From Acididesulfobacillus acetoxydans (lineage in GTDB: Bacteria > Bacillota > Desulfitobacteriia > Desulfitobacteriales > Desulfitobacteriaceae): DNA of 64,000 bases. Position 1 is the first letter of the stretch. The number at the start of each line of letters is the position of its first letter. Below, one piece after another: positions 51,167 to 60,809 of the stretch. Position numbers and translations under genes: made by a program. The stretch is from positions 2,480,001-2,544,000 of the forward strand of contig NZ_LR746496.1 of the NCBI RefSeq assembly GCF_902729405.1. The letters run 5' to 3'. Below the pieces are notes generated by a model. The model saw only the letters and a program-made list of their open reading frames with translations, searched no databases and had not been told where the DNA came from.

Positions 51167-53697
51167 GGGAAACATCCGGGTCGGGACAGGCTTGTTGGCA
51201 TATTCAGATCACGGGGATGGTTCAGGGAGTGGGTTTTCGCCCCTATTTGTACCGTCTGGCGCAAGACTACGGTTTGCTGGGCTGGGTGCTGAACGACGGC
51301 GAAGGGGTGGAGCTCGAGGTGCAGGGGCCGCGTGCGGCTCTTGCCGGTTTCTTGGAGGCGTTGCCGCGGGAAAAGCCCCCTTTGGCCCAAATTCACGGCT
51401 TGACTAAACAAGAGCGCCCGCCGGGGACTTTCACGCGTTTCGAAATTCGCGCCAGCGTCCTGCACTCGCGTCCCCAGGTTCTTATCCCTCCCGACCTGGC
51501 TATTTGTCCGCAGTGCCGGGAGGAAGTTCTGGCCGCCGGGGAGCGTTATCACCATTATCCCTTTACTAACTGTACTTATTGCGGCCCGCGCTTTACGGTA
51601 GTTAAAGGGCTTCCTTATGACCGTGTGCGCACCTCGATGGCGGCCTTTGAGATGTGTCCCGAATGTGCGGCAGATTACCGCAATCCCTTGCACCGGCGCT
51701 TCCACGCCCAACCTACGGCCTGCAGCCGCTGCGGTCCCCAGGTTACCCTCCTGGACCGAGAAGGGGTGCCGCTGTCGGGCCATTGGGAAGAGAGATTTTC
51801 CGTTCTGCTGCGGGCGGGCAAAATCTTTGCCGTCAAGGGGATCGGAGGGTTTCATCTTGTCTGTTCGGCCCTGAACCAAGAGGCCGTTCAACGCCTGCGC
51901 CAGGCCAAGAAGCGCCCCTTTCGTCCCTTGGCCGTTATGGCCAAAGATGTGGCAACGGTGAAGAAGTATTGCCGTGTCAGTCCTCTGGAGCGGGAAACCC
52001 TTCTCGGTCCGGCGGCTCCTATCGTCATTCTGGAGACCAAGCCGGGAGCGGTTCCGGAGAACTTGGCTCCCCGGCAAAAGACTCTGGGAGTTATGCTCCC
52101 CTATAGTCCTTTGCATATCCTGCTTTTTACCGCGGAGACTGATCTTTTGGTCATGACGAGCGGGAATGCGCGGGGTCTGCCTATCGTCAAGGATAACGAG
52201 GAGGCTTTGCGCGATTTGTCTCCCTTTGCCGACTATTTCCTCGTGCATAACCGGGAAATCGTCAATCGCTGTGATGACTCGGTCGTGCGCGTGATCCAAG
52301 GCGGCGTCCATTTTTACCGCCGTTCCCGCGGCTATGTACCGGCCCCGGTGGCTTTAACTCTTGATACGGAAGCCGACGTGTTGGGCTGCGGCGGGGAGAT
52401 GAAAAATACCTTCTGCCTCATCCAGGGGCGGAACGCTTTTCTCAGCCAGCACCTCGGTGACATGACTTACCTGGAGGGCTTGGAAAATTACCGCCGGGCC
52501 CTGCGGCACTTGCAAGGGCTTTTGCAAATCGCGCCCCGGATCATCGGCTATGATCTTCACCCTCAGTACAGTGTCACTCCCCTCGTGCGCGGACTGTTTG
52601 AGGGCCCGGATGAGACGGAGGGGGAGGCAGAGGGGAATAAGAATGTTAAGAGAGAGGGAGGTATACAGAGAAGCGGAGGTATAAAGAAAGAGGGCGGTAT
52701 AAAGGGAAGCGGGGGTATAAAGAGAAACGAGCAGGTTCCTGTCCGCTTTTTCGCCGTCCAGCACCATCACGCTCACCTGGCCTCAGCCATGGCGGACAAT
52801 GCCCTGGAGGGGGAAGTCATCGGGGCTATCCTGGACGGAACCGGCTACGGCACGGACGGCACACTTTGGGGGTTTGAGATCCTCAGCGGCGGTTACCGGT
52901 CGTTTACCCGGCAGGTGCACTTGGCACCCGTGCCTCTGCCCGGGGGGGAACGTGCGGTTCTCAATCCCTGGCTGACCGCGACGGCTTATCTCTTGACCTA
53001 CCTGGGTGAGGAGGGGAAAAGTTTGGCCGAGCGCTGTTTCCCGGGCAGAGAAAAGGATGTGGCCCAGGTAGCGCGTATGCTTGAACACGAGGTCAATGCG
53101 CCTGGGGCCAGTGGGGCGGGGCGGCTTTTTGATGCGGCGGCCGCTTTACTCGGAATTTGCCTGACCAGTACGTACGACGGTCAGGCGGCCATGGAGCTTG
53201 GGGAGCTGGCGAGAGTGAGCCTCTCCGCAGGCGGGTTTTCGTCGGCGGCTGCGTTGGGACCCGGGGAACCCGCTTCTGATCGCGTTGATGATACCTGGCA
53301 AGAGTACCGTGTCGGGCAGTGTGTATCCGGGGAGTCCGCCTCTTATCCCTTTGGCTTGAGGGACGGCATTCTGGAGGCAGATGGGCTTCTGCGGGGAATA
53401 CTCCGCGACCGGCAAGCCGGCTTCGCAGTCAGAAAAATAGCCGTCAAATTTCATCGGAGCGTGGCGCAAATGGTCTTAGCGGGTGTCAAAGAGGCTTTTC
53501 GCCACACTGGGTTACGACGGGTGGTCCTAAGCGGCGGGGTCTGGCAGAATCCGCTGCTTCTGGACTTGGCGCTCGAGCTTCTCAGCGCCAACGGGTTTAC
53601 CGTCTATACCCATCGGTCCGTTCCCGCCAATGACGGGGGTTTGTCCTTGGGTCAGGCGGTGGCGGCTTATCATATGTGGCTGAGCGAGCAGAGTTAG
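51163..53697 (+). CDS. hypF: Carbamoyl transferase HypF with repeat insert
   Basis: A 844-aa protein that makes the CN ligand precursor of the NiFe site by transferring carbamoyl from carbamoyl phosphate to HypE. Domains: acylphosphatase (about 10-95; ITGMVQGVGFRPYLYRLA), two zinc fingers (CPQC, CTYCG, CPEC, CSRCG, about 110-190), YrdC-like (about 200-390) and Kae1-like (about 400-840; VQHHHAHLAS, GTGYGTDGTLWG). Oddity: about 45 residues (near 487-525) between the YrdC/Kae1 parts are a low-complexity repeat of GGIK-type words encoded by a DNA tandem repeat at 52620-52735. hypC, D and E are not in the window. Confidence 0.95.
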   Translation: MRETSGSGQACWHIQITGMVQGVGFRPYLYRLAQDYGLLGWVLNDGEGVELEVQGPRAALAGFLEALPREKPPLAQIHGLTKQERPPGTFTRFEIRASVLHSRPQVLIPPDLAICPQCREEVLAAGERYHHYPFTNCTYCGPRFTVVKGLPYDRVRTSMAAFEMCPECAADYRNPLHRRFHAQPTACSRCGPQVTLLDREGVPLSGHWEERFSVLLRAGKIFAVKGIGGFHLVCSALNQEAVQRLRQAKKRPFRPLAVMAKDVATVKKYCRVSPLERETLLGPAAPIVILETKPGAVPENLAPRQKTLGVMLPYSPLHILLFTAETDLLVMTSGNARGLPIVKDNEEALRDLSPFADYFLVHNREIVNRCDDSVVRVIQGGVHFYRRSRGYVPAPVALTLDTEADVLGCGGEMKNTFCLIQGRNAFLSQHLGDMTYLEGLENYRRALRHLQGLLQIAPRIIGYDLHPQYSVTPLVRGLFEGPDETEGEAEGNKNVKREGGIQRSGGIKKEGGIKGSGGIKRNEQVPVRFFAVQHHHAHLASAMADNALEGEVIGAILDGTGYGTDGTLWGFEILSGGYRSFTRQVHLAPVPLPGGERAVLNPWLTATAYLLTYLGEEGKSLAERCFPGREKDVAQVARMLEHEVNAPGASGAGRLFDAAAALLGICLTSTYDGQAAMELGELARVSLSAGGFSSAAALGPGEPASDRVDDTWQEYRVGQCVSGESASYPFGLRDGILEADGLLRGILRDRQAGFAVRKIAVKFHRSVAQMVLAGVKEAFRHTGLRRVVLSGGVWQNPLLLDLALELLSANGFTVYTHRSVPANDGGLSLGQAVAAYHMWLSEQS
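52620..52735. repeat. In-frame tandem repeat within hypF
   Basis: Four imperfect copies of about 21-24 bp with core GGAGGTATAAAGA/GGCGGTATAAAGG/GGGGGTATAAAGA, all multiples of three so the frame is kept. Confidence 0.88.
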
Positions 53698-53828
53698 CAA
53701 GCCGGCGGGACCTTTGGGGCTATACTAACGAAGTTAGACGGCATTCGGCTGAGTGAGCAAGGTTGCGGCTATTCTCTGCAAGGAACAGGGAGCGAGTATG
53801 ATGATTTGGAGAAAGGGGCAAAGGAAGG

Positions 53829-54440
53829 ATGGAGTTTCTCTGCGTGGACTTTGAGTTTAGCGTTAAAAGGGCCTTTGGCAGTCCGCGGGCCTGGTTCCCG
53901 GAAATCATTGAGGTGGGGGGGGTGCGGGTCAGCGCCGAGGGCGAACTCGGTTTGGAGCGATACGGGGCCTTTGTCAAACCGCGTTTTTGGCCGCGCTTGG
54001 GACCGGATTGTTACGGGATCACGGGTATCAGGCAGGAGGATGTGGATCAGGGGGTTTCCTTGGAAGACGCGCTTCCCAGACTGAAGGACTTGGCCCCGGC
54101 CCCGGACACCTGGCTGGTCGCCTGGGGAGACGCTGACCGGCGCATTCTCGGCCATGTATGTGAACAGTATGGGCTCGAGTATCCCTATCTTTGGGAGAAT
54201 TACTGTGATCTGGCGGAATCATATAAAAATTTTGCTCAACTGGAGAGGACGGCATCTCTAAAAACCGCCGTGACGGAAATGAAGGTAGAACAGGTGGGCA
54301 TCCTCCATTCCGCCTTGGATGACGCGGTTAACGCGGCTCTGGTCATGCAGAAAATGCTGGCTCAGGGATGGTCGGCGGAGCGGGCTTCCCTTATTCCCGA
54401 GTCGGGGAAGAAAAAAGCGGGCGGTCACCGGGGAGTCTAG
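53829..54440 (+). CDS. DEDDh 3'-5' exonuclease (KapD-like)
   Basis: A 203-aa exonuclease with Exo I CVDFEF (Asp, Glu), Exo II around WLVAWGDADRRIL and Exo III HSALDDAVNAAL (His, Asp). It resembles Bacillus KapD and the ERI-1 group, which act on RNA or in sporulation control. ATG 53829 follows AAAGGAAGG. It converges with the broken glutamate-synthase-like gene, stops 30 nt apart. Confidence 0.86.
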   Translation: MEFLCVDFEFSVKRAFGSPRAWFPEIIEVGGVRVSAEGELGLERYGAFVKPRFWPRLGPDCYGITGIRQEDVDQGVSLEDALPRLKDLAPAPDTWLVAWGDADRRILGHVCEQYGLEYPYLWENYCDLAESYKNFAQLERTASLKTAVTEMKVEQVGILHSALDDAVNAALVMQKMLAQGWSAERASLIPESGKKKAGGHRGV

Positions 54441-55455
54441 GCCCATCCCGCTTGACACCCGGGGGGAATTTCACCAAGCCCGTTTCACCCCGGTTATCTC
54501 AGCTGTCAAGGCATCGAGAGCCACAAGGTCGTCGGGGTTCAGTTCTTTTAGAGAAGTCTTGCCCAGTGCGCGCATGGCTTCCTCCATTTCCAGAACGAGG
54601 GCACTAATCGCGTTCACGACACTGGTGGCCGCTTGTTCAATATTGAGCTTGTTTTTGCTGAGGGAATCATAAAAGACCAGGGTGGTCGGCGGCTCCCAAG
54701 GAATCACTTTGTCCAATTGCCTGTGGGGCAAAGAGAAAAGCGGCACGCTGGCCATATAAATAGCATCGGCACCCAAAGCCAGGGCCTTGAGGCATTCCCC
54801 GGGCGTGAAGAAGCCGCCGGCGATAATCAGGCTCACTTTGTCGCGCGCTTGTTGCCGGGTCAAAAAACGCTGGGCGCGCATCAAAGCAACCAGGGTAGGA
54901 AGGCCGAAATCGTCCTGCTTGATAGAGGAAGAGGCGTGCGAGCCCCCTTGGGCCCCGTCGATAACCAAAACGTCAAAACCCAATTTGAGTGCTGCCTCCA
55001 GGTCTTCCTCCAGGTTCCCCGTGGCCATTAGTTTTAAGGCGAGCGGGACGCCGCGGGCTTTTTGCCGCAAAGTCTTGACGAAGCCGGGCCAATCGCCGGG
55101 CTTGCTGATTCCGGGCGGGGCGGGCAGTCCGATGGCGGCGGCCCCGGGAGTGAGTCCCGAGAGTTCCTGGGCCCGGCCTTGGAACTCGGACGCCTCGATG
55201 CGCACCGGTCCGGTGTCTGCCCCCTGCCCGGTTTGCACTTCCAACATGTCGGCGGAGGCGATCTGTTCCGGCGTCCTGGCTCCCCAAGCCCAGCGCACGA
55301 TTTGCAGGACGTATTTACCGGCGGCGGCCCGTTCTTCCGGCAAAAAAGGCCCTTCTCCCGAGCAGGTGCTGGTCTGCAGGGTTTTTGCGGCTTTGGCCAG
55401 GGCTATTTTCGCTTCGGCGCTCAGGGCTACACCGTAGCCCATGGCGCTGATCATG

Positions 55456-57358
55456 GTGCGCCACGCATGACGATTAACTTGACGGTGAAAGTCCGTTATG
55501 GGGGTATGTAGCGACCAACCATTAGCTCAAGGCAAGGGTGTCCATTGCGAGATGGAATCTGAAGGAAGCCGGCGGCAAAGTTCCGCCCCGAGGAACACGA
55601 ACAATATTAGGCGCGAAATGTGGGGTAAGACTGCCATACAAGTTGAAGCCCAAAAGCTACACGGACACGTCAGCGTAAATGTTGCGGGGACATGGAATGA
55701 AAGTGAATCGTCTTACCGTGGGAGGCCTCACGGACGGGTGGAAACGGAGTAAGAAGCCCGGTTGAAACAAGATTTGTCGTGAGGAGTCAGCAGAAGCCAT
55801 AGTACAGAGGTGTCCCGGACACCGACGGAAGGGCGGAACCAAAGGAGGTGTGGGTCAATGAAAGTTACCGAAGGTGGTAATTTAAAACACAGACAACTTT
55901 GCTTTAAAGACTATCTGCAAAGGTCATCTGCGGAACAGAGAGAGTATGCAGAAGTGTGCGTGCCACCCAGGATGACCAAAACCGACAACACCAACACAGA
56001 CGAGCAGACAGAGAAACTGCTAGAGGAAATTCTCAGCGCCGAGAACCTTAATCGAGCCTACTACAGAGTGAAGGGGAACAAAGGCGCGGGTGGAATCGAC
56101 GGTATGCAGGTGGACGAACTTCTACCCTACCTGAAAGGACACAAGGATGAACTTTTGCAAGCCCTCTGGGACGGGAAATACCGTCCGAAACCCGTACGGA
56201 GGGTAGAAATACCCAAAGAGAACGGGAAAATGAGAAAGCTGGGAATCCCTACCGTCGTGGACAGACTGATCCAACAGGCCATAACCCAGGTCCTTTCGCC
56301 AATCTTCGAAAGGCAATTCTCAGACAACAGCTATGGGTTCCGACCTCAACGAAGCGCTCACGACGCGCTAAGAGCATGTCAAAGGCATATCACAGAAGGC
56401 TTTGTCTACGTCGTGGACATGGACTTGGAGAAATACTTTGACACGGTCAACCAAAGCAAACTCATCCAAATCCTCTCAGACACCATCAAAGATGGACGAG
56501 TCATATCCCTAATCCATAAATTCCTCAGAGCAGGGATTATGGTGGACGGACTATTTGAAGAAAGTCCGGAAGGCGTACCCCAAGGGGGGCCCCTTAGTCC
56601 CTTACTTGGAAACGTCATGCTAAACGTTTGTGACCACGAGCTAGAAAAGCGTGGGCATCGCTTCGTACGCTACGCGGATGACATGATGATTTTCTGCAAA
56701 AGCGAGAAAGCGGCCCGGCGAACGCTAGACCATATTGTTCCTTATATCGAAGGGAAACTATTCCTCAGAGTCAATAAGGAGAAAACAAGCGTGGCACACG
56801 TGAGGAAAGTCAAGTATCTGGGATACGGCTTCTACATCCACAAAGGAAGAGGACGACTGAGAATCCACCCGAAAAGCATCCTGAAGCTAAAGGACAAGAT
56901 CCGGAAAGTCACCGGACGGAGCAACGGGATGGGAATCGAGGAGAGAAAGGCAAAACTCAATTACATCATCCGAGGATGGACCAATTACTTTAAACTGGCA
57001 GACGCCAAAGCGTTACTCGGAAAGATGGACGAATGGCTACGAAGTCGAATTCGGATGGTCACATGGAAACGATGGAAGAGAGTACGCACACGATACGCGA
57101 ACTTGCAGAAGCTTGGCATCAAGAAGGAGCAAGCATGGATGTGGGCAAACACAAGAAAGGGCTATTGGCGAGTAGCCCATAGCCACATTTTGACAATGTC
57201 CTTATCCAACAAACGCATCGAACGCGCAGGATACCCCAGTTTTAGTCAATGCTACTCTGCCAAATAACGTGTAAACTTTGGAGGCGCCGTATACCGAACG
57301 GTACGTACGGTGCTGTGGGAGGTCGGCTGGCCAATTAATGACCAGCCTCCTACCCGAT
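55456..57358 (+). mobile_element. Group II intron, complete (1903 bp)
   Basis: Starts GTGCGCC (GUGYG consensus), has a structured about 400-nt domain I-III region, a maturase gene in domain IV, a domain V hairpin just after the maturase stop (about 57281-57316: GGCGCCGTATACC-GAAC-GGTACGTACGGTGC), a domain VI hairpin with TAATGA in a stem and ends CCTACCCGAT (AY end). Both ends were fixed by the in-frame rejoining of the host gene. No target duplication is expected or seen. Confidence 0.93.
55858..57267 (+). CDS. ltrA: Group II intron reverse transcriptase/maturase
   Basis: A 469-aa intron-encoded protein. RT blocks 0-7 include NKGAGGIDGM, GKMRKLGIPTVVDR, NSYGFRPQRSAHDA, GVPQGGPLSPLLGN and the catalytic YADD in RYADDMMIF. 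A maturase X domain follows (about 330-420; KLNYIIRGWTNYFKLADA). There is no HNH endonuclease at the C-terminus, as in the En-minus bacterial classes (C or D). It splices its intron and copies it into new DNA sites. ATG 55858 has AAAGGAGGTGTGGGTCA; the frame also runs from a GTG at 55810. Intact by all visible motifs, so probably active. Confidence 0.95.
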   Translation: MKVTEGGNLKHRQLCFKDYLQRSSAEQREYAEVCVPPRMTKTDNTNTDEQTEKLLEEILSAENLNRAYYRVKGNKGAGGIDGMQVDELLPYLKGHKDELLQALWDGKYRPKPVRRVEIPKENGKMRKLGIPTVVDRLIQQAITQVLSPIFERQFSDNSYGFRPQRSAHDALRACQRHITEGFVYVVDMDLEKYFDTVNQSKLIQILSDTIKDGRVISLIHKFLRAGIMVDGLFEESPEGVPQGGPLSPLLGNVMLNVCDHELEKRGHRFVRYADDMMIFCKSEKAARRTLDHIVPYIEGKLFLRVNKEKTSVAHVRKVKYLGYGFYIHKGRGRLRIHPKSILKLKDKIRKVTGRSNGMGIEERKAKLNYIIRGWTNYFKLADAKALLGKMDEWLRSRIRMVTWKRWKRVRTRYANLQKLGIKKEQAWMWANTRKGYWRVAHSHILTMSLSNKRIERAGYPSFSQCYSAK

Positions 57359-57851
57359 ATGGGGATGCGCAAGGTAAGAGGTCTTTCGGAACCGGGGCCG
57401 AGCGTAACTTGCATATCGACGGGTGTACTTTCGATGAGGTACGGGCCGGACATCTGGTGGGGCGAAAACATAAGGTTATCAAAGCCGGGAAAATGTTTGG
57501 GACTGCCGATGGGACGGGTGATCGGCTGGCCGAATTCGGCGCGCAGGTCCGTCTCCAGGATATTGAGCACTGAAACGCGCTTGCCTGCCACCCAGAGCTC
57601 CATCAGGTTTTGAGTGTACTTATCCTCTACCAGTTTGCTGACAAAACTTGCGATCTCTTTGCCCAGGATGTAGCGGAAGAGTGGTTTGATCAAAAAGACT
57701 AAGACCAGGCAGAGTTGCAGCGCGAGCAGGCACAAGATGAGGAAGAGCCAAATTGAGTTTGTGAGTGTGATCTGCACAGTGTGTCACCATCCCATACCCC
57801 GGCAAGCGGGGGTTACTGCTTTGGCACTTGTGCGCCGCCGGAGGCTCGGTG

Positions 57852-59285
57852 TCAATGGCCGGAACTCGGGCTGTTTTGCTTCCTGGTTCGCCACCAGGCC
57901 GTGTAAATCTGCCAGATGAGGAGGAAATCGCCCAGGGCAAACACTCCCCCGGCCAGGACGCGAGCCAGCAAATACGGGGTGAGATGAAAGCGCACCTGCA
58001 TGAAGTCCTGACCCAGGATGCGCCAGAGATAAGTTTGCACAAAACCGGCCACGAGCAGGGCCGTACCCATTCCGATCAGCCCGATGTTGAGCAGAAGAAC
58101 CGCCAGGACTCCGGCCTTGTACCCTTTGGCAGTCGGTTCGCTCCCCCAGCTCAAGATGTAATAACATGCGGCTAGAACCAGAAAACCCATGCTGCCGAAG
58201 AGGGCGAGATGGGCGTGGGCAGAGGTCGTGTAAGTCCCGTGCACATAGAGATTGACCCAGGGAATGGTGATCATCAGGCCCAAGACTGAGGCGCCCAGGA
58301 CATGATAAATTAGACTGCTGAGGATCAGCCAGAGGGTGAGCTTTTCCCGTTTGCTCTTGATCCCGGTCTTGCTGCTCAGTTTTGAACTCTTGAAACCAAC
58401 ATACGTCATCTGGACCAGCATTGCGACCGGAACCACCTCTAGTAGGCTGATGAGTGTGCCCAGGAGCAGCCAGAGGGAGGGGACTCCTATCCAGAAATAA
58501 TGGTGGCCGGTGCTGTACAAACCGCCGCTGACCGCCAAACCGGCCTCCAGGTAAAGCCACTTCTCCACCTGTTCCCGCACAGCCAGGCCGGAAACTATGA
58601 AGAAGGTGGCGATGAACCCGGCGGTAGTCAACTCAAAGGCCATCTCTTCCCACAGATGAACCACCCAGAATTTGGCCGCCTCATCCAGGGTGGGATTATT
58701 GTAGTGGAGGGCATTGGGCAGGAGCAGGATGAGAAGGAAAAGAACGCCCACCGTCATGATGGCGGCGGCCGGGGTGATGTGGTGTTTATCAGCCCAGAGG
58801 GTGCGGACCAGGTTGTAGGCGGCGAGGAGCAGGGCTAGGCCGATACCGAGATAGAGAAGAGGCATTCCCTCCAGATATTCTCGCCCATTGCCGATACGCA
58901 GGCTCAAGCTAAGATAGACTGAAAGGGCGAAAGTCAGGACAATTCCAAACTGCCAGCGAGCCAGGCGGGGAGAGAAGACCTCGCGGTTCAGTTCGGCGGC
59001 GGTGAAGTAATAGACCATTCCCATGGTGCCGATCAGGGGCCAAAGGACGGCGAAACCGAGATGAATGGCCCGCCCAAATTCAAAGGGGATGGGCGAAGGG
59101 AGATCCGGTATCACCAAGTCCAAAGCGCCTGCGAGGGCGACCATACTTTGTACCGCGAAGAGCGTCACGGCCGCCAGGCAATAACGGCGGCTGATCATCT
59201 GGACGAGGAAAACCCGTTGCGGCGGGCGTGCCAAAACCCGGTGCCTGCCCGAGGCCTGAGAGGAAAACGCACGAAATAATTTCAC
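57852..59285 (-). CDS. norB: Nitric oxide reductase catalytic subunit (NorB-like)
   Basis: A 477-aa haem-copper superfamily protein of about 12 helices. Metal ligands typical of NorB are present: HLWEEMAFEL (FeB His and the NorB Glu four residues on), GHHYFWIG (the two adjacent FeB His residues), and TSAHAHLALFG (haem ligands). It reduces two NO to N2O with electrons from the cytochrome c subunit. GTG at 59285 overlaps the norC stop; Met30 is a possible later start. The cytochrome oxidase Tyr-His cross-link motif is absent, supporting NO rather than O2 reduction. Confidence 0.87.
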   Translation of the reverse strand: MKLFRAFSSQASGRHRVLARPPQRVFLVQMISRRYCLAAVTLFAVQSMVALAGALDLVIPDLPSPIPFEFGRAIHLGFAVLWPLIGTMGMVYYFTAAELNREVFSPRLARWQFGIVLTFALSVYLSLSLRIGNGREYLEGMPLLYLGIGLALLLAAYNLVRTLWADKHHITPAAAIMTVGVLFLLILLLPNALHYNNPTLDEAAKFWVVHLWEEMAFELTTAGFIATFFIVSGLAVREQVEKWLYLEAGLAVSGGLYSTGHHYFWIGVPSLWLLLGTLISLLEVVPVAMLVQMTYVGFKSSKLSSKTGIKSKREKLTLWLILSSLIYHVLGASVLGLMITIPWVNLYVHGTYTTSAHAHLALFGSMGFLVLAACYYILSWGSEPTAKGYKAGVLAVLLLNIGLIGMGTALLVAGFVQTYLWRILGQDFMQVRFHLTPYLLARVLAGGVFALGDFLLIWQIYTAWWRTRKQNSPSSGH

Positions 59286-59686
59286 GGCTCATCCCCTGCC
59301 TTTTGCGGCTGCGGCGGCCAGCCCAGAGTGGGTATGGTGTGTACATATTCCAGGTAGCTGACCACATTTTCCGCCTCAGTCCGCTTTAAAGCGGGGTGGT
59401 GCCGGTAACGGTTGGGGCGCATGACCGGCGGCTGAATGAGGTATTGAACCAGTTGGGGCGGGTTCACTTTGGCCACAATGTTAGTTAAATCCTCACCGAC
59501 GTAGCCGCCGTTGCCGAACAAAGTGTGGCAGCTGACACAGTTGTGCTTTTGCCAGACCCGTTTGCCGGCGGCGGCCTGTTGAGAAATGGGAACAGGCAAT
59601 CGGGCCGACAAAAGTGTCACCGCTGCGAATAGTACAAGGGAACAGGCACTCAAGATGAGGAAGGATCTCAATTTCAAGGTGTGCAC
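59282..59686 (-). CDS. norC: Cytochrome c subunit of NO reductase (NorC-like)
   Basis: A 134-aa membrane-anchored monohaem cytochrome c: one N-terminal helix (about 8-28), haem motif CVSCH (about 49-53), NGGYVGEDLT and a likely axial Met in PPVMRPNRY. It passes electrons to NorB. GTG 59686 has GGAGAGGAAG upstream. It forms an operon norC-norB followed by the interrupted glutamate-synthase-like gene. Confidence 0.88.
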   Translation of the reverse strand: MHTLKLRSFLILSACSLVLFAAVTLLSARLPVPISQQAAAGKRVWQKHNCVSCHTLFGNGGYVGEDLTNIVAKVNPPQLVQYLIQPPVMRPNRYRHHPALKRTEAENVVSYLEYVHTIPTLGWPPQPQKAGDEP

Positions 59687-59759
59687 TTCCTCTCCGGCGA
59701 ATATGGCAAGCGTATTGTTTGCCGATGCGGGGGTTCTTTATACCTGCCATGTTCAGACC

Positions 59760-59781
59760 GTACGGATTACGTACGGATTAC
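59760..59781. repeat. 11-bp tandem repeat upstream of norC
   Basis: Two adjacent perfect copies of GTACGGATTAC, about 75 nt upstream of the norC start on the opposite strand. The one-turn period suggests a regulator site. The rest of 59687-59890 has no gene. Confidence 0.8.
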
Positions 59782-59890
59782 AGGTAAGCAATTTGAGGTC
59801 GTCCAAGGTCACTTTTCCCGCACCATGACGCCGATCAGCCGGGATGAATACTTGGATCCAATATACTTGTCGGGGAGTTTGAAAAAACGT

Positions 59891-59920
59891 TTGTCAAAAT
59901 GGCCGAATCCGGGATAAAAT
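59891..59920 (+). promoter_or_regulatory. Promoter of the methyltransferase gene
   Basis: TTGTCA at 59891-59896 and TAAAAT at 59915-59920, 18-nt spacer, about 95 nt before the GTG start. Confidence 0.6.
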
Positions 59921-60014
59921 ATACTCGTGGTTTTGTGGTTCGGTCTGGGGAAACGCACGTTTCCGACCCTGCAAAATAGTTTTGCGGAGAAATTTGGAAA
60001 GGGGCAAAGTTATA

Positions 60015-60809
60015 GTGATCATCGTTGGAGAATTGATCAATTCCACTCGGAAGGCGATTGCCCAAGCAATCGAACAAAAGGACAAGCCTTATTTGCAGGA
60101 TCTGGCAAAACGCCAGGCTGAATCGGGTGCCGCTTTTATCGACATCAACACGGCGGCCAGCGGCAATGAGATTGAGAACATGAAATGGATGGTTGAGCTT
60201 GTCCAGGAAGTGACGGATGTACCCCTCTGTATTGACAGCCCCAGCGCCGCGGCTTTGCAAACCGGTTTGCAACTTTGCCGGCAAAAGGCTTTGGTGAACT
60301 CCATCACGGCGGAGAAGGAGCGCTGGGAGCAAGTGCTTCCGCTGGTGCAGGAATTCAAGACGGGGGTTATTGCCCTTTGCATGGAAGACGGGGGTATGCC
60401 GGAGAGCACGGATGACCGTCTGCGGGTGGCGGAGAAATTGGTCACGGGGTTAACCGCCTCCGGTGTGGCAAAGACCGATATATACCTTGATCCCCTGATC
60501 AAACCGCTCGGGGTCAACCACAAGTTCGGCGCGGAAGTGCTGGAGACCACGCGTCTCCTACGGGAACGTTATCCCGAGGTCCACATTATTTCCGGGCTTT
60601 CCAATGTCTCGTTCGGACTGCCGGAACGCAGGCTGATTAACCGGGCGTTCATGACTATGAGCGTCGCCATGGGGATGGATGCTTTCATTCTTGATCCCCT
60701 CGATCAGGTGATGATGTCGTTTCTGGCGGCTGCACGGGCTTTGGCCGGGTACGATGAGTATTGCATGGACTATATTGCCGGGGTGCGCGCCGGAAAAGTT
60801 AAAGCTTGA
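60015..60809 (+). CDS. Methyltetrahydrofolate:corrinoid methyltransferase
   Basis: A 264-aa pterin-binding TIM-barrel protein (AcsE/MtgA family). It starts VIIVGELINSTRKAI with the GE-IN-TR motif that contacts tetrahydrofolate, and has FIDINTAA, LCIDSPSAAAL, and ISGLSNVSFGLP, all family features. It moves the methyl group between methyl-THF and a corrinoid protein in the cytoplasm, as in acetogenesis or methylamine/betaine use. GTG 60015 after GGAAAGGGGC is preferred to TTG 59982. The corrinoid protein itself is not in the window. Confidence 0.93.
   Translation: MIIVGELINSTRKAIAQAIEQKDKPYLQDLAKRQAESGAAFIDINTAASGNEIENMKWMVELVQEVTDVPLCIDSPSAAALQTGLQLCRQKALVNSITAEKERWEQVLPLVQEFKTGVIALCMEDGGMPESTDDRLRVAEKLVTGLTASGVAKTDIYLDPLIKPLGVNHKFGAEVLETTRLLRERYPEVHIISGLSNVSFGLPERRLINRAFMTMSVAMGMDAFILDPLDQVMMSFLAAARALAGYDEYCMDYIAGVRAGKVKA

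Follow-up and report, generated by a model that had tools for sequence, protein, structure and literature searches.

A complete group IIC intron of 1903 nt (55456..57358, + strand) interrupts a minus-strand gene for an FMN glutamate-synthase-like protein in the chromosome of Acididesulfobacillus acetoxydans. Very probably, the RNP of this intron was reverse-spliced into the hairpin-bearing lagging-template strand of the host gene, which would account for the antisense gene interruption. Coordinates refer to the window, the whole 64,000-nucleotide stretch that was analysed (positions 2,480,001-2,544,000 of a single contig of 4,520,225 bases, the 4.52-Mb chromosome). Antisense group II introns are not spliced from the mRNA of their host gene. 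Because the intron lies on the + strand and the gene on the minus strand, the host mRNA is not repairable by splicing, as an earlier note made from this sequence had argued, and a knock-out of the host gene is to be expected. To that reading the present analysis adds the terminator-targeting type of the intron (IIC), a hairpin in coding sequence as its likely target, and the direction of replication as what may lie behind the antisense orientation.

The intron ends GTGCG (55456) and CCCGAT (57358), first placed in the earlier note, recur in nine full-length copies. Rfam models matched the + strand in order and above the gathering score. Group-II-D1D4-3 (1.8e-27; 55541-55712) and D1D4-1 (55765-55834) mark the domain I-IV core (55541..55834), and domains V-VI (57282..57358) are covered by Intron_gpII D5/D6 (RF00029, 48.7 bits), whose match stops exactly at 57358, the 3' joint. 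The intron encodes an intact RT/maturase of 469 aa (55858..57267, + strand) with the YADD motif and a GGAGG ribosome site just upstream. This protein was shown to carry RVT_1 (PF00078, 1.3e-40) and GIIM (PF08388, maturase domain X, 3.5e-23) and to match TIGR04416 with 418.8 bits. No endonuclease domain was found in it by Pfam, which gives RVT_1 and GIIM only, and its C-terminus lies 50 aa past domain X. The nearest PDB sequences were the GsI-IIC RT (4.6e-118) and the group II RT/maturase 7uim, at about 398 bits, whereas LtrA scored far lower (164 bits, 4.6e-47). Judged by its sequence, the element is a class C (group IIC) intron: its RT is nearest to IIC enzymes and lacks an endonuclease domain, and its sites mostly follow hairpins. 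With known members of the class (B.h.I1, GsI-IIC, Ta.it.I1 and the E. rectale IIC introns) it shares a compact ribozyme, an endonuclease-less RT-maturase, GTGCG...AT ends, insertion after hairpins and on the lagging-template strand, and the presence of multiple copies.

The interrupted gene consists of a 5' part of 139 codons and 2 nt (57359..57777, minus strand) and a 3' part (54471..55455, minus strand) that holds nearly the whole Glu_synthase/FMN barrel domain (PF01645, 2.3e-44). Deletion of 55456-57358 rejoined the two in frame to a single ORF on the minus strand, 467 aa long (...LRIP-IMISAMGYG...) with a Glu_synthase match of 3.3e-46, which confirmed the joint as it had been proposed. The uninterrupted homologue whose search had been suggested was found in G001, the one other genome of the same genus among the relatives searched. 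There the gene is an open frame of 469 aa, colinear across the joint at the DNA level and 91% identical to the host gene over the C-terminal part. Relative to this empty site, the intron was inserted with neither duplication nor deletion. The earlier note had also considered that the protein family might normally start at the ATG near 55454, the upstream part then belonging to another gene. That is not the case: of 11 orthologues close to the host gene, ten could be aligned with it starting at residue 1 and reaching about residue 467, and one starting at residue 27, which assigns the upstream part to the host gene. The rejoined gene and its G001 counterpart differ by a dN of 0.061 and a dS of 0.744, from which purifying selection until recently is deduced. 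One intact paralogue, 37-39% identical, is present elsewhere in the genome. The host gene begins with GTG (57775-57777), and the orthologue from the same genus with ATG.

A search of the chromosome with the intron recovered nine copies at the full length of 1,903 nt, with identical ends and 99.9-100% identity, besides small fragments and one copy truncated on the 3' side. The copy at 2,762,767 is identical to that of the window, and the other full-length copies are one or two substitutions away. Such near-identity indicates that the family moved recently. Together with the empty site in G001 it agrees with the recent event that the earlier note had envisaged; as to retromobility, the sequences imply recent mobility only.

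The strand of insertion was compared with the direction of replication. GC skew changes sign at about 0.46-0.68 Mb (ori) and near 2.9 Mb (ter), and the + strand is thus the lagging-strand template in the arm that contains the window. The sense strand is the lagging-strand template in nine of ten copies, the window copy included, the exception being at 2,726,583. This excess (P = 0.011 for at least 9/10) is weak alone and is confounded, since terminators mostly point with replication. Unlike the intergenic terminators, where gene direction confounds the strand bias, the window site involves no gene terminator. Class C introns are reported to prefer the lagging-strand template (PMC8919778). The preferred strand here is the + strand and the host gene, on the minus strand, runs head-on to replication; an insertion into that strand is antisense to the gene.

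It is established that insertion of IIC introns takes place downstream of intrinsic terminators (PMC4424553, PMC8919778, PMC7161350). A sample of 71 non-redundant insertion sites of the intron subfamily was drawn from the same genome, its relatives and GTDB genomes. At 61 of these sites the foot of a hairpin, usually a terminator, lies 1-10 nt before the intron. The usual IIC site is just past an intergenic terminator, whereas the window copy follows a hairpin in coding sequence (55417..55447, + strand) that consists of host codons as they read on the other strand. In its core, GGGCTAC (55424-55430) and GTAGCCC (55434-55440) pair around the loop ACC, and the stem is extended outward. The fold was calculated at -12.0 kcal/mol as DNA and -21.8 as RNA, and its foot is 7-8 nt before the intron. 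The corresponding stretch of 11 orthologues, in which the joint was mapped by alignment (a motif search for it had found one orthologue only), gave folds of -1.3 to -6.4 kcal/mol, and none of them has the hairpin. Immediately before the joint these orthologues have A or T, where this genome has G. The presumed target hairpin thus appears, from these comparisons, to be private to this lineage, and the changes in this stretch relative to G001 leave the protein unaltered. Immediately 5' of the intron is an IBS1-like ATG (55453..55455, + strand), and the bases 5' of the intron end in TG in eight of the nine full-length copies of this genome. The presumed IBS3, base +1, is A at the window site versus T in 57 of the 71 subfamily sites, a difference that weighs against the account given below.

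Most likely, a hairpin in the DNA of the host gene that mimics terminators is why the intron sits where it does. The RNP of a mobile group IIC intron would have reverse-spliced into the + strand of the gene, having mistaken the coding-sequence hairpin for one of terminator type with a short IBS1 (here ATG) a few nucleotides on. As the template of the lagging strand, the + strand would be single-stranded often enough for the hairpin to fold, and nascent lagging-strand DNA would serve as primer for the RT, which lacks an endonuclease. In a gene head-on to replication, insertion into the preferred strand would necessarily be antisense. A related case is that of the group IIC-attC introns of integrons, which are likewise IIC introns recognising a DNA stem-loop other than a terminator; they differ in that no integron or attC was seen at the window insertion, where the stem-loop consists of ordinary codons.

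Could the intron have landed here by chance, with the hairpin a coincidence? In the same genome, two full-length copies follow a hairpin that is weak or missing (-5.5 kcal/mol at L025, -1.0 kcal/mol at L028), so that insertion does not strictly depend on one. At the window site, however, the hairpin belongs to the strongest 0.1% among comparable positions: with thresholds set from this site, only seven of 7,427 TG positions on both strands of the window have an equally strong hairpin with its foot at 3-10 nt. The spacing is the usual one and the hairpin is missing from every orthologue compared, and insertion without hairpin recognition is accordingly considered unlikely.

Two further readings bear on the consequence of the insertion and on its reality. 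The 3' part might still be translated from the ATG at 55454, one base from the joint, to give a soluble FMN-barrel protein lacking the membrane segment at the N-terminus; this ORF retains nearly the full Pfam domain (70-368 of 369). Against such use, a scan of 53500-60300 gave no promoter-like site on the minus strand, a ribosome-binding site is not evident in the intron sequence upstream, and the N-terminal part is kept in orthologues. Gene decay is uninformative on this point, as the intron is too recent. Continued use of the split gene is judged improbable to a greater degree than a chance insertion. Least credible of all is that a repeated intron was misplaced at this locus by the assembly. 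Nine near-identical copies are the type of repeat that misleads assemblers, but misplacement would produce chimeric flanks, and joining the flanks here restores a single exact gene, colinear with that of G001, in a genome that is a single contig.

Antisense copies within genes are uncommon in this subfamily, the mechanism being ordinary and the substrate unusual. In line with the earlier remark that most such insertions lie outside genes, only three of the 71 sites interrupt a recognisable gene, and that of the window is the only antisense one among the 71. The other two are in sense orientation: one interrupts a C39-peptidase ABC transporter gene (L071) and one, L025 (G000:C1:4472710-4474612, minus strand), is a near-identical copy of the same genome inside a cas4-like gene that is in frame once the intron is removed. 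Two sites with large ORFs across the rejoined flanks and no Pfam match (L075, L121) were not counted as interrupted genes. The general picture of group II introns is unchanged by this case, which offers a clean empty-site example of how a gene can be broken by a terminator-seeking intron and why the insertion is antisense. Terminator-like hairpins that arise in coding sequences, especially in head-on genes, might constitute a second category of IIC target that is both genuine and predictable, with codon-level drift exposing a conserved gene to antisense knock-out; this generalisation is put forward tentatively and is more doubtful than the account of the single insertion.

The host gene follows norCB, as previously described, and no further gene of the run comes after it; for this reason the intron interrupts the host gene and not norCB. 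An exonuclease-like ORF (53829-54440), next at lower coordinates, converges with it. Upstream on the minus strand lie a norB-like gene of the COX1 family (57852..59285), the neighbour that is conserved with the host gene, and a norC-like cytochrome c gene (59282..59686). Of 16 orthologues with 68% identity or more, 15 have a norB-like gene immediately upstream, the exception (L165) having none in the stretch examined; of ten more distant homologues checked (37-62% identical), none has one there. The protein encoded right after norCB in the close orthologues is a membrane-anchored FMN glutamate-synthase-like protein (norCB and the host gene together span 54471-59686 here). Other FMN glutamate-synthase-like genes adjacent to norCB in the same family are about 70-90% identical to the host gene and share the norC-norB-gene order, but all those examined are open, in contrast to the intron-split gene described here.

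Conserved in this position, the protein is a possible accessory of nitric oxide reduction, and an effect of the insertion on NO metabolism is only a possibility; no paper dealing with such proteins in connection with nitric oxide reductase was found. The strain is probably a natural mutant in a conserved norCB-associated gene, which calls for caution in studies of its NO and nitrate metabolism. A nosZ gene is present at 0.77 Mb. In a study of what is probably the same species, DEACI_0715 was described as nosY in the nosZ operon and DEACI_2320-2321 as norBC (PMC10949509), and the chromosomal positions of nosZ and norCB fit this locus-tag order. There norBC was hardly expressed and absent from the detected proteome, and no intron was mentioned (PMC10949509).

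Some other copies of the intron have features of their own. Two remnants (G000:C1:1715670-1715812 and 4278491-4279639) retain the 5' end of the intron and have lost the 3' end, the opposite of the usual 5' truncation by incomplete reverse transcription. The copy L022 (G000:C1:3599297-3601199, minus strand) was not counted as a simple gene insertion since its flanks look like two unrelated genes, an ABC transporter ATPase upstream and a Mg-chelatase/ComM-like gene downstream, an arrangement that could reflect deletion or recombination between copies of the intron.
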